Shown here: one piece after another, positions 2,901 through 47,672 of the stretch | Layout: each line of letters opens with the position of its first letter | How positions within the stretch are numbered: the first letter of the stretch is position 1 | Assembly (NCBI GenBank): GCA_013298955.1 | Contig: JAAFJT010000005.1 | Coordinates: 1-64,000, forward strand | Length of the DNA: 64,000 bases | DNA from: Chitinophagales bacterium | GTDB lineage: Bacteria; Bacteroidota; Bacteroidia; Chitinophagales; Saprospiraceae | Reading direction: 5' to 3' | Position numbers and translations under genes: made by a program | Notes under the pieces: generated by a model | Database searches by the model: none | Told to the model about the DNA's origin: nothing | Seen by the model: only the letters and a program-made list of their open reading frames with translations

Positions 2901-4109
2901 ATGGCTGTTACCAATAAATCGCGCCTTTCTCGTTTAGCGCGCAATATGTCCGAATCGGAAACCCTCAAAATGGCGCAAATGGCACGAGACCTCCGCGCAA
3001 AAGGGCATCAAGTGATTAGTCTCGCTATCGGCGAACCCGATTTTGATACGCCAAAAGCCATCAAAGAGGTGGCTGTAAAGGCGTTGATGGATGGTTTTAC
3101 GAAATATACGCCTGTTCCGGGTATTCCCGATTTGCAACAAGCGGTATCCGACAAATTTAAAAGAGATAACGATTTGTCATACGCACCGAATCAAATTGTG
3201 GTCAGCAATGGCGCAAAACAATCGATTGCCAATGTTGCAATGGCATTGTTAGATGAAGGCGATGAGTGTATTGTGTTCGCGCCGTACTGGGTTTCGTATG
3301 CAGAAATTATCAAAATGACAGGTGCAAAACCCGTGTATGTGAGCGCGGGTGTGGAACAAGATTTCAAAGTTACGCCTGCACAAGTACGCGCTGCGATTAC
3401 AGAACGGACGAAAATGGTCTTATTTAGCTCGCCTTGTAATCCATCGGGTTCGGTTTTTAGCAAAAAAGAATTGACGGCAATTGCGAATGTATTGGCGGAA
3501 CACGATGATATTTACATTGTTTCAGATGAAATTTATGAATATATCAATTTTGGCGAAAAGCATTTTAGCATTGGTTCGTTGCCGCAGGTGAAAGACCGCA
3601 CGATTACGGTCAATGGTTTTGCGAAAGGATTTAGTATGACGGGCTGGCGATTGGGTTACATGGGTGCGCCGAAATTTATTGCGGATGCTTGTGTGAAAAT
3701 TCAAGGACAAATTACGTCTGGTGCTAATTCGTTTAGTCAAAAAGCAGCTGTTTTTGCTTTAAATTCGGATTTGACGGAATCTTTCAAAATGCGCGATGCG
3801 TTTTTAGCCCGTCGTAATATGATGATTCAACTTTTAAGTGAAATTCCGGGATTTCGGGTCAATCATCCACAAGGTGCTTTTTACATGTTTCCCAATATTA
3901 GTGCGTTTTTTGGCAAATCAGATGGCAAAATTGTTATCAAAAATGCAGATGATTTGACGGATTATATTATGATGAATGCTTATGTGGCATTGGTCAGTGG
4001 CAGTGCTTTTGGCGATGATGCGTGTATTCGCATTTCCTACGCGGCGAGCGAAGCGCAATTGCGTGAAGCGGTGCAGCGGATTAAAGACGTATGTGCTAAA
4101 CTGGTTTAA
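2901..4109 (+). CDS. aspC: Class I/II pyridoxal-phosphate aminotransferase (aspartate type)
   Basis: A 402-residue fold-type I aminotransferase. Visible hallmarks are GEPDFDTP near residue 40, SNGAKQSI, the substrate and cofactor loop SPCNPSG, SDEIYEY with the cofactor-binding Asp and Tyr, and NGFAKGFSMTGWRLGY, whose SMTGWR follows the Schiff-base lysine. A C-terminal arginine in CIRISYA binds the carboxylate. Length and motifs fit aspartate aminotransferase (aspartate + 2-oxoglutarate to oxaloacetate + glutamate). It lies about 350 bases before the egtB-like operon with a hairpin between them, so I treat it as independent. It is not of the class V type used as the EgtE C-S lyase. Confidence 0.9.
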   Translation: MAVTNKSRLSRLARNMSESETLKMAQMARDLRAKGHQVISLAIGEPDFDTPKAIKEVAVKALMDGFTKYTPVPGIPDLQQAVSDKFKRDNDLSYAPNQIVVSNGAKQSIANVAMALLDEGDECIVFAPYWVSYAEIIKMTGAKPVYVSAGVEQDFKVTPAQVRAAITERTKMVLFSSPCNPSGSVFSKKELTAIANVLAEHDDIYIVSDEIYEYINFGEKHFSIGSLPQVKDRTITVNGFAKGFSMTGWRLGYMGAPKFIADACVKIQGQITSGANSFSQKAAVFALNSDLTESFKMRDAFLARRNMMIQLLSEIPGFRVNHPQGAFYMFPNISAFFGKSDGKIVIKNADDLTDYIMMNAYVALVSGSAFGDDACIRISYAASEAQLREAVQRIKDVCAKLV

Positions 4110-4128
4110 GATTATTAATAAATTAAAT

Positions 4129-4175
4129 GCAAGTAAACTTGCGTTAAGTTTCAAACTTGACGCAAGTTCACTTGC
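4129..4175. terminator. Hairpin terminator after the aminotransferase gene
   Basis: Arms of 16 bases (GCAAGTAAACTTGCGT and its complement) pair with one mismatch, around an inner AGTTT/AAACT stem. It lies 20 bases after the aminotransferase stop codon. The right side is followed by a moderately T-rich run, so it fits transcription termination. Confidence 0.65.
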
Positions 4176-4298
4176 TCATTTTTACCCATTTATCTTTGGA
4201 TAACGCACTTCACTTTAATTACTGGTAATGGATGCTTCTCTATTTCCTTGCCGTTTTATTTCAATTAAAATTTGATTTTTTTTAAAAAAAAGGCTTTG

Positions 4299-4333
4299 TT
4301 TTTTGGTCATTCAAAAATGATTTAGGATATTTG
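4299..4333 (+). promoter_or_regulatory. Probable promoter of the egtB-egtD-like operon
   Basis: TTTTTTGG at 4299-4306 and GATATTTG at 4326-4333 resemble the Bacteroidota -33 (TTTG) and -7 (TAnnTTTG) boxes, about 20 bases apart. The -7 box has one mismatch. Transcription would start near 4340, giving a leader of about 125 bases before the preferred egtB start. Confidence 0.5.
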
Positions 4334-4464
4334 CGCTTATGTAGAACTATACAATGTCTCTACACGGTGTTTTTAATTTTAAAAAAACCAAAATCTGTTT
4401 TGAATTTAATAAAGTAATGCACTTACGGCATCACTTTAAACCAAACTTATTTAAGATTTTTTCT

Positions 4465-5724
4465 ATGTCAACATTAAATGTTTATCAGTCCGCCTACGCC
4501 AAGGTTCGGAAGGAAACAGAATCTTTATGTCAGCCTTTGACACCCGAAGATTATGTCGTGCAAGCATCGGATTTTGCGAGTCCGCCTAAGTGGAACTTAG
4601 GACATACCACTTGGTTTTTTGAAACATTTATTTTAAAACCAAATGTGGCTGATTACAAAACGTACAATGATGCGTTCAATTTTTTGTATAACAGTTATTA
4701 TGAAAGTATCGGAAAACGGACGTTGCGCCATTTGCGCGGCACGATTACGCGCCCGACGACGGACGAAGTGTATGCGTATCGCCGCTATGTGGATGCTGCT
4801 ATGAACGCTTTTTTAGCCAATCCGATGGTTTTGGAACAAAGTTCCGAGTTGAAGTATTTATTTGAATTGGGTTTGCACCATGAGCAGCAACATCAAGAGT
4901 TGTTTTTGACGGATGTTAAATATGCGTTATCTTGTAATCCATTAAACCCTGCTTATCAAACGGTTATGCCTCCTGCGGCGGCAGCTCCTGTCTTGCCATT
5001 GAACTATTTGCCTGTTGAAGAAGGCGTTTATACGATAGGGCATGAAGGCGATGCGTTTCATTTTGACAATGAAAAGGGCGTTCATAAGACGTATTTGCAT
5101 GCGTTTCAAATTGCCAATCGCCCCATTACAAATGGTGAATATATTGAATTTATTAAAGCAGGTGGTTATCAAAAATTCCAATATTGGTTGAGCGCGGGTT
5201 GGAATTGGGTTAAAACCAACCAAATTGATAGTCCCATGTATTGGCAAGAAGACGGAGGGGAATGGTATCAATTTACCTTATATGGATTGCGAAAAGTCGA
5301 TGAAAATGAAGCAGTTACGCATGTTAGTTTTTATGAAGCGGATGCTTTTGCGCATTGGTCTGGCAAGCGATTAGCGACTGAGTTTGAATGGGAAGTTGCC
5401 TGTCGGCAATACAGCCCACAAGTGCCAGAAACGGGTCATTTTACAGATTCGGGGCGGTATCATCCGATTGCGCCGACGCAGGATTTTCAATTTTTCGGCA
5501 ATGTTTGGGAGTGGACGAATAGTGCTTATTTGGCATATCCATTTTACACGCAAGCGGAGGGCGCGATTGGCGAGTACAATGGCAAATTTATGAATAATCA
5601 AATGGTTTTACGGGGTGGTTCCTGTGCGACACCGCGTTCACATATTCGTTTGACGTATCGAAATTTTTTCAATTCGCACGAAAGATGGCAATTTACAGGC
5701 ATTCGGCTTGCAAATTATAAATAA
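4465..5724 (+). CDS. egtB: EgtB-type nonheme iron sulfoxide synthase
   Basis: A 419-residue protein with an N-terminal DinB-like helical domain and a C-terminal formylglycine-enzyme (FGE-sulfatase) domain, the EgtB architecture. Likely iron ligands are His47 (GHTTWFFETF) and His139/His143 in HHEQQHQE. The C-terminal domain shows FGNVWEWTNS and VLRGGSCATPRSHIRLTYRNFF. EgtB joins a sulfur donor (cysteine or gamma-glutamylcysteine) to hercynine in ergothioneine synthesis; related enzymes make ovothiol. I start at 4465; an ATG at 4354 would add 37 unconserved basic residues. It is first gene of an operon with a methyltransferase, egtD and an oxygenase. No EgtC or EgtE gene is nearby. Confidence 0.88.
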   Translation: MSTLNVYQSAYAKVRKETESLCQPLTPEDYVVQASDFASPPKWNLGHTTWFFETFILKPNVADYKTYNDAFNFLYNSYYESIGKRTLRHLRGTITRPTTDEVYAYRRYVDAAMNAFLANPMVLEQSSELKYLFELGLHHEQQHQELFLTDVKYALSCNPLNPAYQTVMPPAAAAPVLPLNYLPVEEGVYTIGHEGDAFHFDNEKGVHKTYLHAFQIANRPITNGEYIEFIKAGGYQKFQYWLSAGWNWVKTNQIDSPMYWQEDGGEWYQFTLYGLRKVDENEAVTHVSFYEADAFAHWSGKRLATEFEWEVACRQYSPQVPETGHFTDSGRYHPIAPTQDFQFFGNVWEWTNSAYLAYPFYTQAEGAIGEYNGKFMNNQMVLRGGSCATPRSHIRLTYRNFFNSHERWQFTGIRLANYK

Positions 5725-5744
5725 GAATTTTTTAAAATATCATT

Positions 5745-6611
5745 ATGACAACCACTGAATTAACGGAGCTAACTCAATTAGCTGCTGATTATTATCAAGA
5801 AGGCATTTTGGACAAAGACGCATGGTTCCGCGTCGCAGATGCCGATTATCATGCATTATTAAATGCTTTGGATACGAAGCGATTATTTGAACAACCCAGT
5901 ATTTTATTAGACATTGGTTGTGGTACAGGGCGGTTTCCCGCATTATTGCGCCCTTATTTGAGTGCGATGCCCATTATGTATGATTATTTAGACCCTTCGC
6001 AGATGTCTTTGCAGTCCTTGCGCAAGAGTTTAAAGCCGCCGTATCAGGCGCGCCATGCGATTCAGTTGGGTGTTCAATCGTTGACCGAGTGGCAGGAGCA
6101 GACTCAACTGCAATATGATTTAATTTGGGGCATTCATGCGTTGCATTTTGTGGAACCGGAGGAGATTCCGCAAGTCCTTCAAACGATTCAGCGTTGTTTG
6201 AAACCCGATACCGGGGTTGCCTTAGGGTCTTTTATCACGGAAGATTGTTTTTACATTGGGCTACATGACTGTTATTGTCAGGCTTTGGGGAAAGAACGTC
6301 AAAATTGGTTGGGCTACAAGCCTTATACTCAATTGGGTTTCGAGCCTTTGAAAATACCTCGATTGGAACAATCGCTTGAATTTGTACACCGAGTCTCGAT
6401 AGCAGACACCTATACCTTAGAAAATTATTTACAACAATGCGTTTTTGATAAAACGTATTCGTTGCAGGAATGGTTTGATAATCCGATTTTGAACGATTAT
6501 CTGCGACAATATCAAGTGGGAGATACTTTTGAATTTCCTCAAAAAATTATAATGATTCAATTTGGCGATTTAAGTCGCCCGCTTTTGCGCAATGCAATTT
6601 TGAAAAAATAA
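5745..6611 (+). CDS. Class I SAM-dependent methyltransferase in the egt-like operon
   Basis: A 288-residue Rossmann-fold methyltransferase. The SAM-binding loop LLDIGCGTGRF lies around residues 54-64. An acidic/polar DPSQ follows near residue 85, and a QYDLIWGIHALHFV post-motif is present. The C-terminal 120 residues, rich in Tyr, Trp and Phe, probably form the substrate cap. It sits 20 bases after egtB and 6 bases before egtD, so it is almost certainly co-translated with them. It is not the EgtD fold, which is the next gene. Ergothioneine synthesis needs no second methyltransferase, so this one may modify the product or an imidazole nitrogen, as the methyltransferase part of OvoA does. That role is inferred. 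Confidence 0.8.
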   Translation: MTTTELTELTQLAADYYQEGILDKDAWFRVADADYHALLNALDTKRLFEQPSILLDIGCGTGRFPALLRPYLSAMPIMYDYLDPSQMSLQSLRKSLKPPYQARHAIQLGVQSLTEWQEQTQLQYDLIWGIHALHFVEPEEIPQVLQTIQRCLKPDTGVALGSFITEDCFYIGLHDCYCQALGKERQNWLGYKPYTQLGFEPLKIPRLEQSLEFVHRVSIADTYTLENYLQQCVFDKTYSLQEWFDNPILNDYLRQYQVGDTFEFPQKIIMIQFGDLSRPLLRNAILKK

Positions 6612-6617
6612 CGCAAT

Positions 6618-7574
6618 ATGGAACTTACAACGAACTTAACAACCTTCGCGCTGGATGTCGATAAAGGACTGTCCGCGCCTCAAAAATATTTATCGTCGAG
6701 TTTTTTCTATGATGAAGTCGGCAGTATCATATTCCAACAAATCATGGATTTGCCCGAATATTATTTGACCCGTTGCGAAGCCGAAATCTTACAATCGCAT
6801 TGTCAATCGTTGTTGGAGGTGTTCAACACGAAGGCAGGTTTTGATTTATTGGAATTAGGCGCGGGTGACGGTGCGAAAACGACGATTTTATTAGAGCATT
6901 TTTTAAAACAAGGTGCTGATTTTAGTTACGGCGCGATAGACATCTCGCCAAGTGCTGTGGCAGGTTTGGAAATGGACTTGAAAGCTAAATTTCCAACATT
7001 ATGTTTACAAATGATTGCGGATGATTACTTTTCGGGTTTGAAACAACTGCAATTGACCGCGAAACGCCGCAAAGTGGTTTTATTCATGGGTTCGACGGTC
7101 GGCAATTTTAAACCAAAAGCTGCCATCGCCTTTTTGAAACAAGTGCGCCCTTACATGAATGAAGGGGATTTATTTTGCATTGGTTTCGACTTGAAAAAGC
7201 ATCCTAAAATGATTCTCGACGCTTACAACGACAGTCAAGGCGTGACGGCGGAATTTAATTACAATCTCTTGCGCCGCATGAATGAGGAATTGAAAGCGGA
7301 TTTCAAGGTAGAACAATTTGAACACGCGCCGATTTATCATCCACAAAATGGTTGTGCGGAGAGTTATTTGGTCAGCAAAAAGAATCAAAATGTATATATT
7401 GGGGCTTTAGACAAAACATTTTCGTTTAAAGCATGGGAAGCCATTCATACCGAAGTCTCTTACAAATACTCATTGCAGGAGATGGAAGAGATTGGAAAAG
7501 CAGCTGGTTTTACGTCCCAAACCCATTTTTTGGATGCCAAACGCTATTTTTGTAATGCGATTTGGAGTGTGTAA
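6618..7574 (+). CDS. egtD: L-histidine N-alpha-methyltransferase (EgtD type)
   Basis: A 318-residue member of the EgtD/Methyltransf_33 family, which trimethylates histidine to hercynine (histidine betaine) with three SAM. The family signature is clear: PQKYLSSSFFYDEVGSIIFQQI and LPEYYLTRCEAEIL at the N-terminus, LELGAGDGAKT at about residues 78-88, then GAIDISPSAV, LFMGSTVGNF and a C-terminal EVSYKYS. Length is normal for the family. Its start lies 6 bases after the methyltransferase stop. With egtB it forms the core of the operon. Confidence 0.92.
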   Translation: MELTTNLTTFALDVDKGLSAPQKYLSSSFFYDEVGSIIFQQIMDLPEYYLTRCEAEILQSHCQSLLEVFNTKAGFDLLELGAGDGAKTTILLEHFLKQGADFSYGAIDISPSAVAGLEMDLKAKFPTLCLQMIADDYFSGLKQLQLTAKRRKVVLFMGSTVGNFKPKAAIAFLKQVRPYMNEGDLFCIGFDLKKHPKMILDAYNDSQGVTAEFNYNLLRRMNEELKADFKVEQFEHAPIYHPQNGCAESYLVSKKNQNVYIGALDKTFSFKAWEAIHTEVSYKYSLQEMEEIGKAAGFTSQTHFLDAKRYFCNAIWSV

Positions 7575-7610
7575 ATTATTATAATTTTTAACGATTTAAC
7601 AAAACCAATT

Positions 7611-8561
7611 ATGCCAGATTTCAAAAAACATTTGAGTCTTCGCGAATTATTAATTGCGAAAGACCAAATTGAGGACATTCATTATTGGCGCAAGCTCTGT
7701 CCGAATGCGTCCGTTTCTGATTTTGCCGTAGATAGGCTCAAAACAGCGAAAATTGATGCAGCACAATTAGCTGATTATCAATCTTTTATGCAGGATGAAG
7801 GTTATTTTCAAACCGTGCCTATGTTGCCTGTGGCGATGCAAACGCAAATGTTAGAATGTATTGAAACTGTTAAAATGGCAGGTTTTCCAGTCCTGTTTGC
7901 CTTGATTTACGATGTATTTTATGAAGCATTTAACTATTTTGACCCCATTATGAAGCATCTTTTGGGGGATGATTACACAATGATTCCTAACTTTTGGGTG
8001 TATTACATCGAAGCGAGCAATGATGGAAAAGGTTTTGAACCGCACCGAGATTTGGAATATTTGCATGCGATAGATGCGGATGGCAAGCCGACCGTACTCA
8101 CGTTGTGGATAACCGTGAATGATTCCACGCCGTTAAACTCTTGCATGTATGTTTTGCCAAAACACCGCGACCCAGAATATCATTTGGCAATTTCGGATTT
8201 AAAACAGGGCGCAACCAAATTTAAATTGGAAGATGTGCGGGCTGTGCCGATTGCAGGTGGTTGTTTATCTGCTTGGGATCAGTACTTGTATCATTGGGGA
8301 AGCCGCAGCAGCAAGTACGCGTCTGCGCCGCGAGCGAGTTATGCGATGTATTGTCAGCGCGGTGATATGAAACCCGTCGATGATGCGTCGATTGATTTGC
8401 GCGAAGGCGTTGATTTCAAACAACGATTGGGTTTGATTTGTCGGGGTGTTTATCGATACTCGTATGTCAAATCGGATGCAAGTCAAAAATCGCCAGAATT
8501 ATTAGCCTTTTTGGAAAATAATATGAAGGTTTTAAAAAATCATGTTCATCAGTTGGTGTAA
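7611..8561 (+). CDS. Phytanoyl-CoA-dioxygenase-like 2OG/Fe(II) oxygenase
   Basis: A 316-residue double-stranded beta-helix oxygenase. Probable iron ligands are His145 and Asp147 (FEPHRDLEY) and His228 (QYLYHWGSRSS). Arg241 is positioned to bind the 2-oxoglutarate carboxylate. TVLTLWITVND and the PKHRDPEY loop are typical of PhyH-like proteins. It is the last gene of the egtB-egtD operon (36-base gap, same strand), which suggests that it hydroxylates or otherwise oxidises a hercynine- or ergothioneine-derived compound. I know of no role for this family in standard ergothioneine synthesis. A 33-bp palindrome follows within 5 bases of the stop. Confidence 0.78.
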   Translation: MPDFKKHLSLRELLIAKDQIEDIHYWRKLCPNASVSDFAVDRLKTAKIDAAQLADYQSFMQDEGYFQTVPMLPVAMQTQMLECIETVKMAGFPVLFALIYDVFYEAFNYFDPIMKHLLGDDYTMIPNFWVYYIEASNDGKGFEPHRDLEYLHAIDADGKPTVLTLWITVNDSTPLNSCMYVLPKHRDPEYHLAISDLKQGATKFKLEDVRAVPIAGGCLSAWDQYLYHWGSRSSKYASAPRASYAMYCQRGDMKPVDDASIDLREGVDFKQRLGLICRGVYRYSYVKSDASQKSPELLAFLENNMKVLKNHVHQLV

Positions 8562-8565
8562 TGCC

Positions 8566-8632
8566 TGTACAACTTTCGCAAAGTGTCTTTTTGACAAATT
8601 TTGTCAAAAAGACACTTTGCGAAAGTTGTACA
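8566..8632. terminator. 33-bp perfect palindrome after the oxygenase gene
   Basis: Two 33-base arms (8566-8598 and 8600-8632, beginning TGTACAACTTTCGC) pair perfectly around one central T. It starts 5 bases after the stop codon and would form a nearly loop-free hairpin in RNA. The inner arm is T-rich then A-rich. It probably ends the egt-like transcript, though it is far longer than an ordinary terminator. Confidence 0.7.
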
Positions 8633-8645
8633 CGGATTTAAGTAG

Positions 8646-8884
8646 AAAATACTCAGCAATTTCCGCTTTTAAAAATGCCGATACAATTGGAACGCGGATG
8701 ACGCGGATTGGGCGGATTTGCACGGATTTTTTTCGATTCAATTGAAATTTTATTTTGAAAAAGCATAAAAAATTAAAGAAAATTTTGTATAAAAAAACAA
8801 ATCCGTGCAAATCCGCCCAATCCGCGTCATCCGCGTTCCAATTGTATCGACTTTTTCCAAAGCGGAAATTGCTGGAAAATACTT
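8646..8884. repeat. Family A inverted repeat (copy 1)
   Basis: A long inverted repeat. Its left arm runs to about 8733 and contains GGAACGCGGATGACGCGG. Its right arm, from about 8797, carries the complement ending in CCGCGTTCCAATTG. Outer flanks also pair imperfectly (AGCAATTTCCGCTTT on both sides). The spacer is A+T-rich. Similar copies occur at 12787, 43561 and 47563. Open frames through it only translate the repeat. Confidence 0.85.
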
Positions 8885-8942
8885 TTTCAGCGAAAAATTT
8901 CAGCGAAAATCAAGAACTTATGAAATAAAAAAAAACGGTTTT

Positions 8943-9608
8943 ATGATAAAAAAACAGGTAATTGAATTGCAAAATATCGCGCAACGATACGGTGAAAAAG
9001 AAGTTTTATCGAATATAAACCTTTCATTTTCAACGAATTGCATTACAGCCTTATTGGGCAAAAGTGGTAGTGGGAAATCTACTTTATTGCAATTAATCAA
9101 TGGTATGGTGAAACCATCTATTGGTAAAGTACGTGTTTTTGGGAACGATTTTGATTACACCAAAGCAGCGCAATTGCGTTTGCAAATGGGTTATGTCGTA
9201 CAACAAGTGGGTTTATTTCCGCATATGAATTTGTATGATAACATCTGTTTATTGGGCAAAATTACGAAAATGCCGTTGGAAAGCATTCAAAAACGGTTCG
9301 ATTTTTTGCTTAATATGGTGCAATTGCCTCATTCGTATATTCAAAAATATCCCTATGAACTTTCGGGTGGAGAGGCGCAAAGGGCAGGTTTATGTCGCGC
9401 TTTGTTTTTGAAACCGTCGATTTTATTGATGGATGAGCCGTTTGCAGCCTTAGATGCGGAGACGAAAAATAATATTTATCAATACTTTTTGTTGATTCAA
9501 AAAACGGAGCCTTGTACGGTTGTGCTGGTAACGCATGATTTGAAAGAAGCGGAGACGCTTGCAGGTGAATTGGTTTGGCTCGAAAATGGAAAAATCATTC
9601 AAAAATAA
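8943..9608 (+). CDS. ABC transporter ATPase, quaternary-amine type (OpuCA/EgtV-like)
   Basis: A 221-residue ABC ATPase. Walker A is GKSGSGKS (39-46), the Q-loop is near VVQQVG (85-90), the signature is LSGGE (140-144), Walker B is ILLMDEP (160-166), and the switch His is 198. It is shorter than ProV/OpuAA and lacks their CBS domains. I start at the ATG at 8943; longer frames only read through the repeat. The next gene, 7 bases on, is the matching binding-protein/permease, so this ATPase powers import of an osmoprotectant-like compound. Its place just after the egtB-egtD operon makes ergothioneine or a related betaine a reasonable cargo. Confidence 0.85.
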   Translation: MIKKQVIELQNIAQRYGEKEVLSNINLSFSTNCITALLGKSGSGKSTLLQLINGMVKPSIGKVRVFGNDFDYTKAAQLRLQMGYVVQQVGLFPHMNLYDNICLLGKITKMPLESIQKRFDFLLNMVQLPHSYIQKYPYELSGGEAQRAGLCRALFLKPSILLMDEPFAALDAETKNNIYQYFLLIQKTEPCTVVLVTHDLKEAETLAGELVWLENGKIIQK

Positions 9609-9615
9609 AAATGGT

Positions 9616-11094
9616 ATGAAAAAATATTTAATTTGTATTCTATTGATTTTCAAAATAATTTTGCCTATAATGGCGCAAACGACCTTGAAAGTAGGTACAA
9701 AACATTCTAATGAATCCTATATTTTAGGAGAAATAGTTGCGCAGATTTTGGAAGATGGCGGGTTTAAAATCGAACGAAAATTTAATTTAGGCGGTACGGC
9801 TATCAGTTTTGAGGCATTGAAAAAGGGTTCGATTGATGTTTATCCAGAATATTCTGGGACGATTGCCGCCGAAATTTTAAAACAAAAAAGTACCAACCTT
9901 GATTCATTGAACCAAAAGTTGAAAACCCAATTTCAACTTGAAATATCAGCCCCCTTTGGTTTCAACAACACGTATGCACTCGCCTTGTCACCCGATTTAG
10001 CTCGAAAATATCCGCTTAAAACGATTACCGATTTGGCGGCGCATCCCGAATGGCGGGCTGGATTGAGTTATGAATTTTTGAAACGCGAAGATGGTTGGGG
10101 CAATTTGTCAAAAGCGTATCAACTGACTTTAAAAGCGACTGGATTGGAACATGGTATTGCGTATCAAGCACTTATGAATCACGAAATTGAGTTAACGGAT
10201 GCTTATTCAACGGATGGTGAAATTGCAAAATATGGTTTTACGCTGTTGGAAGATAATTTGCATTTTTTCCCGAAATACGAAGCCTTAGCTTTGTATCGGA
10301 GCGCGTTGCCCGAAAAAGCCAAAAATTTGTTGGAAAAGTTGGGGCATACCCTCAACGATACGACGATGCAACGCCTCAATTCATTAGCGTTATTTGAAAA
10401 ACAAACGCATCAAAAAATTGCGCAAGATTTTTTAGCCGCTCAAAAAATGATTCAAAATAAACCCGTTGAATCCATTTCTACGATGCAAGATATTCTGAAT
10501 CATATTTTTACACATTTAAAATTAACGTTATTATCTTTGATAGCCGCCATTTTGGTAGCCGTTCCTTTTGGGATTTTACTGCATCGATTTCCCCGATTTT
10601 CCAAACCCCTGTTGTATTTGACGGGCATTTTGCAAACGATTCCGTCCATCGCATTGCTCGCTTTGATGATACCTTTTTTAGGCATTGGCGTTTTGCCCGC
10701 GATTGTCGCGCTGTTTTTATACGCCCTTTTGCCGATTTTGCGCAATACGGTGATTGGTTTTAGCTCCATTGACCCAACTTTGAAAAAAATTGCGACCGCG
10801 ATTGGACTCAATCCCTTACAAAAATTGTGGCATGTTGAGTTGCCTTTGGCAATGCCGATGATTTTAACGGGGATTCGCACTGCCGCCGTCATCAATGTCG
10901 GTACGGCAACCTTGGCAGCTTTTATTGGCGCGGGCGGATTGGGTGAATTTATCGTGACAGGTTTGGCATTGAATCAGACGGAGTTGATTTTACGCGGCGC
11001 AATACCGTCTGCGTTATTGGCGATTGGCATCGAATTATGTTTTGAAATCATCGATAAATTATTGATTCCTAAGCATTTAAGACAAAAAATATAA
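9616..11094 (+). CDS. Fused substrate-binding protein and permease, OpuC/EgtU-like
   Basis: A 492-residue fusion. Residues 1-20 are a signal peptide ending near IMAQ. Residues 22-290 form an OpuC-type binding domain (VGTKHSNESYILGEI, FNLGGTAISFEAL, IDVYPEYSGT, LTDAYSTDGEI). From about 300 come five or six membrane segments with the permease coupling loop AIGLNPLQKLWHVELPLAMP. It pairs with the preceding ATPase to form a complete importer for choline, betaine, carnitine or ergothioneine-like ligands. As I recall, the known ergothioneine importer EgtU is also a fusion, but with the permease first; here the binding domain comes first. Start is the ATG at 9616, which gives a clean signal peptide. 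Confidence 0.87.
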   Translation: MKKYLICILLIFKIILPIMAQTTLKVGTKHSNESYILGEIVAQILEDGGFKIERKFNLGGTAISFEALKKGSIDVYPEYSGTIAAEILKQKSTNLDSLNQKLKTQFQLEISAPFGFNNTYALALSPDLARKYPLKTITDLAAHPEWRAGLSYEFLKREDGWGNLSKAYQLTLKATGLEHGIAYQALMNHEIELTDAYSTDGEIAKYGFTLLEDNLHFFPKYEALALYRSALPEKAKNLLEKLGHTLNDTTMQRLNSLALFEKQTHQKIAQDFLAAQKMIQNKPVESISTMQDILNHIFTHLKLTLLSLIAAILVAVPFGILLHRFPRFSKPLLYLTGILQTIPSIALLALMIPFLGIGVLPAIVALFLYALLPILRNTVIGFSSIDPTLKKIATAIGLNPLQKLWHVELPLAMPMILTGIRTAAVINVGTATLAAFIGAGGLGEFIVTGLALNQTELILRGAIPSALLAIGIELCFEIIDKLLIPKHLRQKI

Positions 11095-11129: not shown

Positions 11130-11251
11130 CACCTCTTCATTTTACAATCAAGAAGGAAGGAATTGTAGGAATAAGTAGTTGAAATAAAAGAATCGCCCAA
11201 TTCGAGTCATCCGCGTTCCAATTGTATCCTACCATTCCTCCCTTCTTGATT
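11130..11251. repeat. Composite inverted repeat between convergent genes
   Basis: An AATCAAGAAGGAAGGAATTG segment near 11149 pairs with a CCATTCCTCCCTTCTTGATT segment near 11231-11250. Between them lies a single half of the family A repeat (about 11191-11229, ending CCGCGTTCCAATTGTATCC). It separates the transporter gene from the convergent haloperoxidase-like gene and may end both transcripts. Confidence 0.6.
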
Positions 11252-12640: not shown

Positions 12641-13013
12641 GGGTTCTAATGTTTGTTGAAATATTGCCTCAACTTTAAGTTTTAAAAATCGAGTTTTGGC
12701 TCAAAATATTGTTAAATATTGCAAAAATATAGCATTTTTATATTTGCGACAATACCATATTTAAGGTGTTTTGGAAAATAAAGGATAATTGGAACGCGGA
12801 TGACGCAGATTGAGCGGATTCGCACGGATTTTTCTTTGAATATTGCTTGAATTGTGAACAAACATATAAAAAAATCCGCGCTCATCCGCCTAATCCGTGT
12901 CATCCGCGTTCCAATTGTATCGCACTGATATTTTTTAGGCATACTATTTCAAAAAAAAACGTACTATTGCAAATCTTTTTAAGTTTTTACAAACTGTATT
13001 AAAACCAATTCTA
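12641..13013. repeat. Divergent intergenic region with family A repeat (copy 2)
   Basis: Family A inverted repeat at 12787-12916: left arm from AATTGGAACGCGGATGAC, right arm ending CATCCGCGTTCCAATT, with a central A+T-rich spacer. The arms have drifted from copy 1 at several positions. This copy lies between divergent genes, unlike most others. The rest of the stretch is A+T-rich with no convincing gene. Confidence 0.8.
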
Positions 13014-14226: not shown

Positions 14227-17200
14227 TTATTCTTTCCCGCCATCTAACACTTGTTGCCAAGATTTCAATTCTTCCCATTTGCCATCTGCTGCCATTTGGC
14301 TTTGGCGACCCCAAGTTTTAGGGTCATGAATCGAATATCTCGGTCCTGCCGCCGTTAAAATCGCTTGGATTTTTTCGATAGGCGTGGCAGCCAATTGTTC
14401 AAAAGTGATGATACCTGCGTCATTCAACAATTGTTCAATCTTCGGACCAATCCCTTCCACTAATTTCAAATCATCGCGTTGCCATTGTTTCAACGAATCC
14501 CAATCGCCGCGCATCGCAAAATTAGCTTGTTTCACCCAAGAATCAGGGTTCAACGTTGAATAACGAACTCCGCCTTTCGTCATCAATTCGCGCAAACGCG
14601 GTACGCCTGCCTCCATCAAATGCCGATACGTATAAATACCATTCATATTCAAATAATCCGCAACCCAATACCGAATCCCGAAAATTCGACCCAAATCATC
14701 GCGTTTGATGCCATCCGCTTTGATTTCCACCTTAACACCGCCATTCGTCGTGGTGGTTGTGGTCGTCGTCGTAGTGATTTTAGATTCCGTTACAGGCATA
14801 TCGCGTCCTGCAACCACTTCTTTGCGGGTTGCTTTTTGGCGCAATTCCGCATCGCTCGTACTTTCGACCAAATTCATCACGGGTTTTTCCGTTCTTTTTT
14901 CAATGACTAATTCCACTTGTCTATCCACAAACTTCTCTACCAATACGTCTCGCACCACAGGGCGTTCGACAATGCGCTCTTGCAATACAGGCACATTTTT
15001 CTCAATATGTCGTTCTTGAATTTGCGGCACTTCCCGTGTCAACGTAATTTCGCGCACCACAGGTTTGTTGACAATATTTTGTTTCAAATCCAATACTTCA
15101 TTCTCAACATTGATTTCCTTTCTAACAGGAACCATTTTATCCACCATAATCTCCATCAAAACAGGTTTTTCAGTAATGCGTTCTTGGATATTCGCCACTT
15201 GTTTTTGAACAGCAATTATATGGTCAACCGTTTTTGTCACAACATTATGTTTAACATTAGCAACTTCGTGCATAACAGGAATGGTTTTATTCACGATTAC
15301 TTCGTTCACCACTTCCTTAATCACCGCTTTTTCACGGCGAACAGGGATTTGACGTTCTACTTTTACCTCATTCATAACTTCCTTAATCACAGGCACTTCG
15401 CGGTTAAATGACACCGTTCTATCCACTTTTACCTCATTCGCCACCTCTTTGATAACAGGCACTTCGCGGTTAAACGAAATGGTTTTATCCACTTTCACAT
15501 CATTATAAACTTCTTTAATCACAGGCACTTCGCGGCGCAACTCAATGATGCGTTCCACAGGCACATCCTTCACCACTTCTTTAATCAATTGAACAGGGCG
15601 TTCTACCATCACTTCTTTGAAAGATGGGACTAATTTTTCCACTTTCACCTCTGTCACCACCGCTTTTGGTACTTCGATTTCGACTTTGATAGGCACTTCT
15701 TTGACCTTTTCCGTCAAAACGAGTACTTCTTTTTTCAACTCAACTGTATGATTCACAGGGATTTCCTTCTCTGTTACAATCGTATAGTTCACTTTTTTAT
15801 CATTCATTTTCTGTTGAAGCACAGGCACTTGTCTTTCGACAAACTCTTCTTTAATTTTCGCCACATCGCGTTTCAACGTAATCGTGCGTTCTACAGGCAC
15901 TGTTTTTTCAACCACTGTATCATGATTGACTTTTTTCTCCACAATCGTTTGCTTCATCACAGGCACTTCCACCTCAATAATGATTTCGCGCTCGACTTTT
16001 TTCTCGACGATTTTCTCTTTGATAACCGCCACTTCTTTATAAATAATGACTTCGCGCTCGACAGGGCGTTCCACAACCTTATATTTAATGACGGGAACAT
16101 CTTTGTAAATAATCACTTCGCGCTCGACAGGGCGTTCCACGATTTTTTCCTTGATGATTTCGACGCGTTTTTCCACAATTTTCTCCACAATCACAGGCAC
16201 TTCGCGTTCAATAATCACTTCGCGGCGCACAGGGATTTCTTTTTCAACAATGACTTCATACACCACTTGTTTTTCAACCACTTTTTCGCGCACGATAGGC
16301 ACTTGCATTTCCACGATTTTCTCCGTGTAATTCGCCACTTCTCTATTCAACACAATCTCTTTATGGACAGGACGTTCCACCATTTTTTGCGTTACAAGCG
16401 GTCTATCCACAAACACCTCTTTCAGGGTTGGAACCATTCGTTCAACCGTGATTTCACGCGTTGTTGGGACGCGTTTTTCATTCAAAACCTCCACCACCAC
16501 TGGTTTTTCAATCGTTTTATGATTGATAACCGCTTTTTCGATGGTAAAAATCACTTCGCGTTGAACAGGCTTTTCAATCGCTTTTTGGGTAATCACAGGT
16601 TTTTCAACGGTAAAAGTCACCTCATGCGGCACCGATTTTTCAATCGCACGGCGCGTAATCACAGGTTTTTCCACTGTAAACACCACTTCATGTGGAACCG
16701 TTTTTTCAATCGCTTTTTCCCGAATCATCGGTTTTTCGTGCATCACAGTTACCTCATGTTGCACTTCTTTTTCGACGATTTTTTGATTGATGATGGGTTT
16801 TTCACGGGTCAATTCAATGTTGTGATGTACAGGGCGTTCCACGATTTTCTCCGTAATGACCGGTTTTTCAACCTCTAAAACGATAAGATGCGGCACTTGT
16901 TTTTCAACCACCTTTTGCTGAATCAATGGAACGCGTTTTTCAACCGTTTGCGTATTGATAACAGCCACATGTTTGGTCAAATTAAACGTGTGCGTAACGG
17001 GTTTTTCAACCACTTTTTGCACAATATCCGCCACTTCATGCACGATATTCATTTGAATCGGCATTTTTCGGGCTTCATTGACAAATTTAGTTTGAACCGC
17101 CATTTTGGATTCTTCTCCCGGAAAATAACGCTCGTCTATGACTTTGCCATCACGCCAAATGCGTCGAATCACTTCGTTCATGACGAAATTCGACCCATCT

Positions 17201-17463
17201 TTCATTTTCAAATCAAAGGTAAATTCGGAATGACTCACCTCATTGCCCATCGAATGACTGTGCAACGTGATTTTGTTAATGCGGTCAACGCCCATCATAA
17301 ACTCCCGATTGCGCCGAATTTTTTCGGCTTTGTTCAAGGTCATATCCGCCACCGTCGAGTAAGATTTGACATCATCAGCGAAAAAGCGTTCGACCGCTTC
17401 GACCAATTTCCCCTCCTGAACCAATAAGTCCAGTTCCACTAATTTTACATTGGTTTCAATCAT
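14227..17463 (-). CDS. SnoaL / charged-repeat / helix-hairpin-helix protein
   Basis: A 1078-residue protein with three parts. Residues 1-125 resemble a SnoaL/NTF2-like cone (VERFFADDVKSYSTVADM, then IRRIWRDGKVIDERYFPG). Residues of roughly 126-885 are about 60 degenerate units of 11-13 residues alternating Val/Ile with Glu/Lys/Arg and Pro (for example VEKIVEKRVEIIKEKIVERP). A run of ten threonines follows near residue 895. The last 160 residues form a helix-hairpin-helix pair (LKLVEGIGPKIEQLLNDAGI, then GPRYSIHDPKTWGRQ), a module also attached to ribosomal proteins in this phylum. There is no signal peptide. The repeats recall alveolin and articulin cytoskeletal proteins; a structural role is a guess. 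Confidence 0.75.
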   Translation of the reverse strand: MIETNVKLVELDLLVQEGKLVEAVERFFADDVKSYSTVADMTLNKAEKIRRNREFMMGVDRINKITLHSHSMGNEVSHSEFTFDLKMKDGSNFVMNEVIRRIWRDGKVIDERYFPGEESKMAVQTKFVNEARKMPIQMNIVHEVADIVQKVVEKPVTHTFNLTKHVAVINTQTVEKRVPLIQQKVVEKQVPHLIVLEVEKPVITEKIVERPVHHNIELTREKPIINQKIVEKEVQHEVTVMHEKPMIREKAIEKTVPHEVVFTVEKPVITRRAIEKSVPHEVTFTVEKPVITQKAIEKPVQREVIFTIEKAVINHKTIEKPVVVEVLNEKRVPTTREITVERMVPTLKEVFVDRPLVTQKMVERPVHKEIVLNREVANYTEKIVEMQVPIVREKVVEKQVVYEVIVEKEIPVRREVIIEREVPVIVEKIVEKRVEIIKEKIVERPVEREVIIYKDVPVIKYKVVERPVEREVIIYKEVAVIKEKIVEKKVEREIIIEVEVPVMKQTIVEKKVNHDTVVEKTVPVERTITLKRDVAKIKEEFVERQVPVLQQKMNDKKVNYTIVTEKEIPVNHTVELKKEVLVLTEKVKEVPIKVEIEVPKAVVTEVKVEKLVPSFKEVMVERPVQLIKEVVKDVPVERIIELRREVPVIKEVYNDVKVDKTISFNREVPVIKEVANEVKVDRTVSFNREVPVIKEVMNEVKVERQIPVRREKAVIKEVVNEVIVNKTIPVMHEVANVKHNVVTKTVDHIIAVQKQVANIQERITEKPVLMEIMVDKMVPVRKEINVENEVLDLKQNIVNKPVVREITLTREVPQIQERHIEKNVPVLQERIVERPVVRDVLVEKFVDRQVELVIEKRTEKPVMNLVESTSDAELRQKATRKEVVAGRDMPVTESKITTTTTTTTTTNGGVKVEIKADGIKRDDLGRIFGIRYWVADYLNMNGIYTYRHLMEAGVPRLRELMTKGGVRYSTLNPDSWVKQANFAMRGDWDSLKQWQRDDLKLVEGIGPKIEQLLNDAGIITFEQLAATPIEKIQAILTAAGPRYSIHDPKTWGRQSQMAADGKWEELKSWQQVLDGGKE

Positions 17464-47562: not shown

Positions 47563-47672
47563 GGATAAATTGGAACGCGGATGACGCGGATTGGGCAGAT
47601 TTTCACGGATTTTTCTTTAAAAAAATCTGTGAAAATTCGCCCAATCCGCGTCATCCGCGTTCCAATTTATCC
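47563..47672. repeat. Family A inverted repeat (copy 4)
   Basis: The left arm begins GGATAAATTGGAACGCGG and continues ATGACGCGGATTGGGC. The right arm ends CCGCGTTCCAATTTATCC. It starts 25 bases after the icd stop codon, and its right end contains the stop codon of the convergent gmhB gene (47667-47669). The loop is short. Confidence 0.9.

Follow-up and report, generated by a model that had tools for sequence, protein, structure and literature searches.

The best known thio- and seleno-histidines are ergothioneine, ovothiol and selenoneine. Here, we describe a four-gene locus in a stretch of 64,000 nucleotides from a Chitinophagales bacterium of the Saprospiraceae (assembly GCA_013298955.1, contig JAAFJT010000005.1, positions 1 to 64,000; hereafter the window), in which egtB and egtD are accompanied by a gene for an additional S-adenosylmethionine (SAM)-dependent methyltransferase, referred to as MT, and by a gene for an oxygenase of the PhyH family. 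The closest described system is the type II EgtB/EgtD pathway of Chloracidobacterium and Methylobacterium; according to the accessible part of PMC11993508, a type II EgtB used cysteine and not gamma-glutamylcysteine. The window locus resembles this pathway in that both enzymes pass their family cut-offs, that no EgtC is encoded at the locus (no genome-wide search for EgtC was made), and that EgtD was found near EgtB in 32 of 36 loci of the same family or order; among the other four, the contigs of L041 and L043 end there. It differs by MT between egtB and egtD and by the PhyH gene behind them, neither of which features in the pathway accounts of PMC11993508 and PMC10903977 as far as these were accessible. 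In the ovothiol system (OvoA/OvoB), ring methylation is assigned to the C-terminal domain of OvoA (PMC10903977, accessible part). The window locus shares with that system a sulfoxide synthase and a methyltransferase for which the imidazole ring is the expected target, but its EgtB fails the OvoA model, MT is a separate protein with no ovothiol-family match, and EgtD is present. The window locus joins a known ergothioneine core to a rare, recurrent and uncharacterised tailoring methyltransferase; among literature titles and abstract openings, with bioRxiv and most subscription journals outside the scope, no operon was found in which EgtB and EgtD are accompanied by a methyltransferase resembling HNMT or by a PhyH enzyme.

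The identities of the two core enzymes, as proposed in the initial annotation, are borne out by the curated NCBIfam cut-offs. The window EgtB reaches 546.6 bits against the EgtB equivalog TIGR03440 (cut-off 360) and fails both the OvoA model TIGR04344 (102.7 bits, cut-off 400) and the SenA model NF041186 (331.9 bits, cut-off 420). A chain labelled EgtB (Cabther) is among its best matches in the PDB (E 4.5e-137 to 4.9e-137), it aligns over 412 residues with the EgtB of Chloracidobacterium, and judged by sequence it is closest to this type II enzyme. In the alignment, H47, H139, H143 and Y78/Y79 correspond to H62, H153, H157 and Y93/Y94 of chain 8qf6, which we take to be the three iron-binding histidines and the type II tyrosine pair. 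EgtD passes its model TIGR03438 only narrowly (304.5 bits, cut-off 290.9) and matches EgtD in the PDB with E 5e-45, the TEVS motif being aligned.

Pfam places MT among the class I SAM methyltransferases in general (Methyltransf_12, 50.5 bits against a cut-off of 30). Apart from the window genome (G000), members of its family were found in Candidatus Methylumidiphilus alinenensis (genome G535, locus L149; 37% identical to the window MT over 267 residues, phmmer E 1.1e-59), in a close relative of the latter (G733, L161), and in Thiohalocapsa (G544), where the MT cluster (L160; 29% identity to the window MT) and the EgtB locus (L133) lie on separate contigs. In L149 and L161 the genes for a radical SAM protein, a DddP-like M24 protein, MT, EgtB, EgtD, an ATP-binding cassette (ABC) ATPase and a substrate-binding protein (SBP)/permease follow one another in this order and no PhyH gene is present. 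In L160 the order is EgtD, PhyH, MT, an MFS transporter and a second methyltransferase, all on the same strand and either overlapping slightly or separated by short gaps; this EgtD, an additional copy in the genome, shares 72% identity with the EgtD adjoining EgtB at L133, and no EgtB occurs in the 12.6 kb read, the contig ending 2.7 kb upstream at the EgtD end of the stretch. Thus, the family was found in four genomes, two phyla and three gene orders, and every one of the four has it within an EgtD operon, which supports the view, based on comparison of sequences and already taken in the initial annotation, that MT belongs with the ergothioneine genes; a PhyH gene accompanies it in one other cluster. 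As L149 was found via its EgtB, it is a biased case, and G544 was likewise picked for EgtB, although not for the position of its MT; the MT of G733, a genome close to L149, was found genome-wide. The matches in G544 and G733 both stem from whole-genome searches blind to position.

The rarity of the family was estimated in overlapping genome sets whose counts include the own or centre genome. A profile of two rows detected MT in two of 20 chosen genomes, namely that of L149 and Thiohalocapsa (E 4.3e-31), in one of 99 genomes of the order of G544 (G544 itself) and in two of 121 of the order of G535 (G535 and G733). With a profile of four rows, MT was found in one of 148 relatives (G000 only), in one of 249 genomes of the phylum of G544 (G544 only), and in none of the genomes from the G540 phylum (0/175) or the G541 phylum (0/184), sets that hold no positive control. 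The window MT protein alone matched in one of 296 Bacteroidota genomes, again its own, and the MTs of the window, L160 and L161 had no match among plasmids. In a FastTree tree of 118 EgtB rows, the window falls into a clade with a support of 96 whose 69 rows are 37 Bacteroidota, 30 members of the window's family or order, one Planctomycetota and the window itself, without L149, L161 and L133. Similarly, the window EgtD lies in a clade of 74 out of 100 rows (support 98) that lacks L149, L161, L133 and L160; its placement inside the clade is poorly supported (20), and the nearest Bacteroidota row is at a distance of 1.6, whereas L160, L161 and L149 are at 3.2-3.4. The separate positions in the trees, together with the three gene orders, argue for a repeated association of MT with EgtD and not for a single inherited block.

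Structural modeling provides a further indication of what MT may do. An AlphaFold2 model based on the four-row alignment (pLDDT 77.5, pTM 0.76; best of five models ranging from 77.5 to 40.4) had human histamine N-methyltransferase (HNMT) as its top Foldseek match (E 5.4e-11), and the fold is shared over 249 residues (VIA-align Z 18.8, rmsd 4.0). Below the HNMT entries, the structural ranking continues with juvenile hormone acid methyltransferase (JHAMT, 16.9) and, at about 14, with SABATH enzymes of plants and xanthine N-methyltransferases. MT differs from HNMT in its sequence, which is only 13% identical in this superposition with no significant sequence match, and in its place within a bacterial histidine-betaine operon. 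Residues of the HNMT pocket include Glu28, Gln143 and Asn283 (PMC9867436, accessible part). N283 corresponds to Q266 of MT, invariant in all four MTs, provided that the end points of the alignment (model residue 275 to chain residue 292) hold ungapped. Q143 would presumably map to H131, which is also invariant. It might alternatively be proposed that MT is an S- or carboxyl-O-methyltransferase yielding S-methylergothioneine or an ester, while the PhyH enzyme acts elsewhere: TmtA (Z 14.1), GtmA (13.6), JHAMT (up to 16.9) and the salicylate methyltransferase SAMT (14.6) have the fold of MT, and S-methylergothioneine is a known metabolite (PMC8471778, accessible part). However, HNMT entries fill the first four places (18.8, 18.4, 17.9 and 17.0), and the Thiohalocapsa MT cluster is without EgtB, so that the substrate need not be a thiol; we consider this alternative quite improbable.

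The analysis shows how the operon is built, to which families its proteins belong, that MT and EgtD recur together in lineages far apart, and which fold MT matches; from this we infer the substrates, the order of reactions and the product of the following route. As expected from the family cut-offs, EgtD would trimethylate histidine to hercynine and EgtB would place the sulfur of cysteine onto C2 of hercynine, after which a pyridoxal phosphate (PLP) lyase encoded elsewhere would probably free ergothioneine. MT would then probably add a methyl group to the imidazole ring, in all likelihood at a nitrogen, with ergothioneine, its sulfoxide precursor or hercynine as the acceptor, and, with less confidence, the PhyH enzyme may hydroxylate the same betaine, perhaps at the beta carbon of the side chain; the adjacent EgtU-like ABC importer would retrieve the betaine. 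We favor, at just short of an even chance, the reading that the operon encodes ergothioneine synthesis together with two enzymes, MT and PhyH, that tailor the same histidine betaine. In the initial annotation, a hybrid between ergothioneine and ovothiol had been suggested; such a product is possible, but the Thiohalocapsa cluster without EgtB makes a methylated hercynine a serious rival. According to this alternative, MT and PhyH would convert hercynine into a sulfur-free histidine betaine that carries a methyl and perhaps also a hydroxyl group, and EgtB would draw on the same hercynine for an independent synthesis of ergothioneine. It would fit that the second EgtD of Thiohalocapsa heads the PhyH-MT cluster with the EgtB-linked EgtD on another contig, and that a ring-methylated hercynine exists in nature: 6-methylhercynine from a sponge is methylated at C2, hence on carbon, and class B (cobalamin) radical SAM methylation is discussed for it (PMC8779493, accessible part). 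As EgtB stands beside MT in the same operon in the other three MT genomes, we regard a sulfur-free branch as unlikely. The Thiohalocapsa genes (L160:6771-11920) with a second EgtD, PhyH, MT, MFS transporter and a further methyltransferase in the absence of EgtB are, in their own right, a candidate cluster for a hercynine-derived metabolite. A separate observation concerns the radical SAM and DddP-like M24 genes upstream of MT-EgtB-EgtD (L149:258-3055 and L161:5785-8612). The radical SAM protein of L161 matches the B12/radical SAM model TIGR04013 weakly (24.1 bits, cut-off 251) and its DddP-like M24 protein stays below the cut-off (358.5 bits, cut-off 600); the open reading frame list contains no B12/radical SAM gene at the window locus.

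EgtE, initially noted as missing, is indeed absent from the locus, but a candidate for a class V PLP lyase is encoded elsewhere in the genome. The EgtE model TIGR04343 reaches its cut-off of 400 nowhere in the window genome, its best match being a class V PLP enzyme of 400 residues (G000:C183) with 125.4 bits. This protein is also below the cut-off as SufS (145.5 bits, cut-off 475.1), and the EgtE model likewise finds matches, none above the cut-off, in 14 of 14 control genomes; since the controls match too and the SufS score is slightly higher, the EgtE score alone says little. In Chitinophaga silvisoli (L119), however, a gene adjoining EgtB-EgtD encodes a protein with 45.6% identity to G000:C183 over 388 residues, and the PDB matches of G000:C183 include 8irk, a 'probable hercynylcysteine sulfoxide lyase' (E 1.3e-15), behind many cysteine desulfurases. 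Synthesis of ergothioneine is therefore plausible, and by sequence ordinary ergothioneine is probably made with this distant candidate. A clean grouping of EgtB with ergothioneine enzymes together with a distant EgtE had been named as speaking against an unusual product, and part of this is what we found, as EgtB scores as EgtB and not as OvoA or SenA and an EgtE-like lyase candidate lies at a distance. Other matches of the EgtE model were discarded, L003 as it passes the SufS cut-off, L004 and L005 as IscS/NifS-like by eye. The aminotransferase upstream of egtB (2901-4109) was also rejected as a C-S lyase: it belongs to class I with aspartate transaminase as the best match, below the cut-off, and for this reason and because of a gap of 355 bases with a hairpin it was excluded from the unit. 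In Pontibacter and Hymenobacter (L081, L083, L091, L096, L098 and L110), the gene behind EgtD encodes a related protein resembling class I PLP aminotransferases, which is a possible alternative C-S lyase there.

Several findings weigh against the favored reading of a tailored ergothioneine pathway. EgtB was found in 38 of 148 relatives, the own genome counted; one further member of the window's genus is in this set, and it has no EgtB at E 1e-40. At the EgtB loci examined in 36 of the 37 other genomes (stretches of 7.7 to 17.2 kb, some ending at contig ends; G009 with two EgtB fragments and a second partial match in G050 stand outside this set), homologues of MT and PhyH were found in none (blastp, E 1e-5), and at E 5 the best value was 0.073, an alignment to EgtB. 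A wider scan with an EgtB alignment gave at least 590 stretches, 570 of these confirmed; among the best 80 loci that were kept, MT occurs in one (L149), and the window PhyH has no phmmer match up to E 5. Ergothioneine synthesis itself therefore needs neither gene. The exact set of four genes was found only in the window genome, an assembly of 204 contigs. Furthermore, the fold does not give a substrate: in the model comparison, the O-methyltransferase JHAMT is only about 2 below the best value and ties with the fourth HNMT entry, SABATH and S-methyltransferases being at about 14, and a profile of the four MT sequences retrieved 53 PDB sequences at E <= 10, no HNMT chain among them. By sequence MT is therefore not an HNMT, although it would work like one. 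The lyase candidate stays below the EgtE cut-off, and MT may act on hercynine instead of a thiol. With 0/36 near loci, ordinary EgtB and EgtD enzymes and a lyase candidate at hand, it might also be argued that MT and PhyH merely ride on a shared transcript, the cell making ordinary ergothioneine and both additional enzymes having unrelated substrates. As a rare MT family in an EgtD operon in four of four genomes, two phyla and three orders is hard to obtain by chance, we hold this to be distinctly improbable.

The remaining points on the same side concern the PhyH enzyme. The structure model from the single sequence reached a pLDDT of only 37.3, so that the assignment rests on a modest match to PF05721 (33.1 bits, gathering score 22) and on motifs, HRD at 145-147, H228 and R241. 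An HRD motif with a later histidine and arginine is typical of the PhyH superfamily, and we take these residues to be the metal and 2-oxoglutarate ligands. PhyH genes accompany MT in only two of the three MT lineages, with none at L149 and L161, and the PhyH of Thiohalocapsa (56.7 bits by Pfam) shows no BLAST similarity to that of the window (E 0.55). Judged from these comparisons, the two genes were therefore probably recruited separately, or have diverged past recognition. Of the four-gene set proposed initially, the MT part recurs with EgtD in three other genomes, the PhyH part is not conserved, and the full set was found in no other genome. Among 148 relatives and 395 Bacteroidota genomes, the window PhyH is found in its own genome only; a scan of viral and genome contigs with exact 8-residue patterns, which covers close relatives only, gave no relative, and plasmids gave no match. 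The L160 PhyH has relatives on plasmids in six records, and the two stretches inspected show no EgtD or EgtB. A profile of the PhyH proteins of L160, L163 and L164 matched, besides L160, a single gene among the loci examined, L120:1764-2576 (E 1.9e-10), which lies about 7 kb from the EgtB of L120 and has no match to the window PhyH.

Downstream of the four genes lies an EgtU-like betaine transporter that had been missed in the initial annotation. Its SBP-permease fusion is 41% identical to that of L149 and 45% to that of L115, both Egt loci, and homologues of the ATPase and the fusion adjoin EgtB or EgtD in 11 of the best 80 loci (L089, L099, L101, L102, L108, L111, L115, L119, L125, L139 and L149). 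In the 36 loci of nearer relatives, no permease homologue and a single weak ATPase match (L050, 23%) were found. The PDB matches of the SBP are EgtUC and 8dp6, labelled 'Osmoprotection protein', which we assume to be the EgtU of Helicobacter. The window protein resembles EgtU of Streptococcus and Helicobacter as an OpuC-type SBP-permease fusion with most contact residues kept, and differs in that the SBP precedes the permease, that three positions are replaced, and that it adjoins biosynthesis genes. Placing the key residues given in the accessible part of PMC9732360 on the window alignment, the equivalents of K242, T296, N339, Y341, E375, R379, Y419 and Y443 are retained, with serine at G244, tyrosine at F293 and phenylalanine at Y337; the first two replacements also occur in the 8dp6 chain. 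In EgtU, E375 and R379 hold the imidazole and the carboxylate (PMC9732360, same part), and the SBPs of L149 and L161 have alanine at E375. Contacts to the carboxylate and the imidazole and most of the cage thus appear to be kept, but not G244 and F293 as determinants of ergothioneine specificity, and the transporter is likely a histidine-betaine importer. It is probably linked to the operon in function and probably a separate transcription unit, because a gap of 381 bases with a hairpin and an inverted repeat lies in between. In nine of the other fusions (L089, L099, L101, L102, L108, L111, L119, L125 and L139), the SBP lobes are apparently swapped and located after the permease. Five of these proteins have their best local match in one lobe, at about 219-384, and four have it in the other, at about 378-516. 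Unlike the SBP-first fusion of the window, these Bacteroidota EgtU-like proteins look like the result of a circular permutation.

The positions of all features are compiled in Table 1. The four genes, which had initially been described as separated by gaps of 20, 6 and 36 bases, are confirmed by their open reading frames on the plus strand, and their GC content is 0.411-0.425. The first ATG of egtB is at 4354, and the start at 4465 agrees with relatives. A shared promoter is not borne out: a scan with a sigma-70-type pattern (4050-9000) gave no promoter-like site before 4906 on the plus strand, a pattern that may not fit promoters of Bacteroidota. The inverted repeat ahead of the transporter genes (8654-8874) has arms of 80 nucleotides; part of it, ATCCGCGTTCC, recurs in the window on both strands, with copies at 8654-8874 and near 11209, 12791-12902, 43575 and 47572-47653. 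Further downstream (14227-17463), an open reading frame of 1078 residues contains, by eye, a long run of 'VEKxV'-type repeats. At the EgtB loci of the relatives, two other groups of genes were observed, a protein family without Pfam match (one member scanned) near EgtB in five of the 36 (L039, L040, L043, L048 and L062, in the last between EgtB and EgtD), and a cluster including a DUF427 protein (one member scanned) in 11 of the 36.

Table 1. Positions of the features of the locus in the window.
Feature	Position	Strand	Basis or properties
egtB, type II-like sulfoxide synthase	4465..5724	+	TIGR03440; alternative start 4354
MT, HNMT-fold SAM methyltransferase, rare Egt-linked family	5745..6611	+	homologues L149/L160, AlphaFold2 model
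egtD, histidine N-alpha-methyltransferase	6618..7574	+	TIGR03438
PhyH-family Fe(II)/2-oxoglutarate oxygenase gene	7611..8561	+	PF05721, motifs
Long hairpin overlapping PhyH stop codon	8560..8638	+	39-nt arms, 95% complementary; -53.9 kcal/mol, z -14.56
Hairpin in the interval between upstream aminotransferase and egtB	4129..4175	+	23-nt arms, 91% complementary; -28.7 kcal/mol, z -8.35
ATPase of OpuC/EgtU-type ABC transporter	8943..9608	+	42% identity to L149 Egt-cluster ATPase
SBP-permease fusion, SBP first, EgtU-like	9559..11094	+	OpuAC + BPD_transp_1 (Pfam)

It might be speculated that the loci described here represent a new class of thiols or betaines, in which ergothioneine or hercynine is N-methylated at the imidazole ring by an HNMT-fold enzyme and hydroxylated at the side chain by PhyH. 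The chemistry would have been assembled around the native egtD once in Bacteroidota and separately in Gammaproteobacteria, the partners varying between PhyH and the DddP-like M24 and B12-type radical SAM proteins; taken as a whole, this proposal is somewhat unlikely. If MT is indeed a ring methyltransferase that recurs in association with EgtD, bacteria would decorate histidine betaines further. The genes would then also be candidates for orphan compounds such as beta-hydroxyergothioneine, obtained from a mushroom (cited in PMC11993508, accessible part), and 6-methylhercynine (PMC8779493, accessible part).

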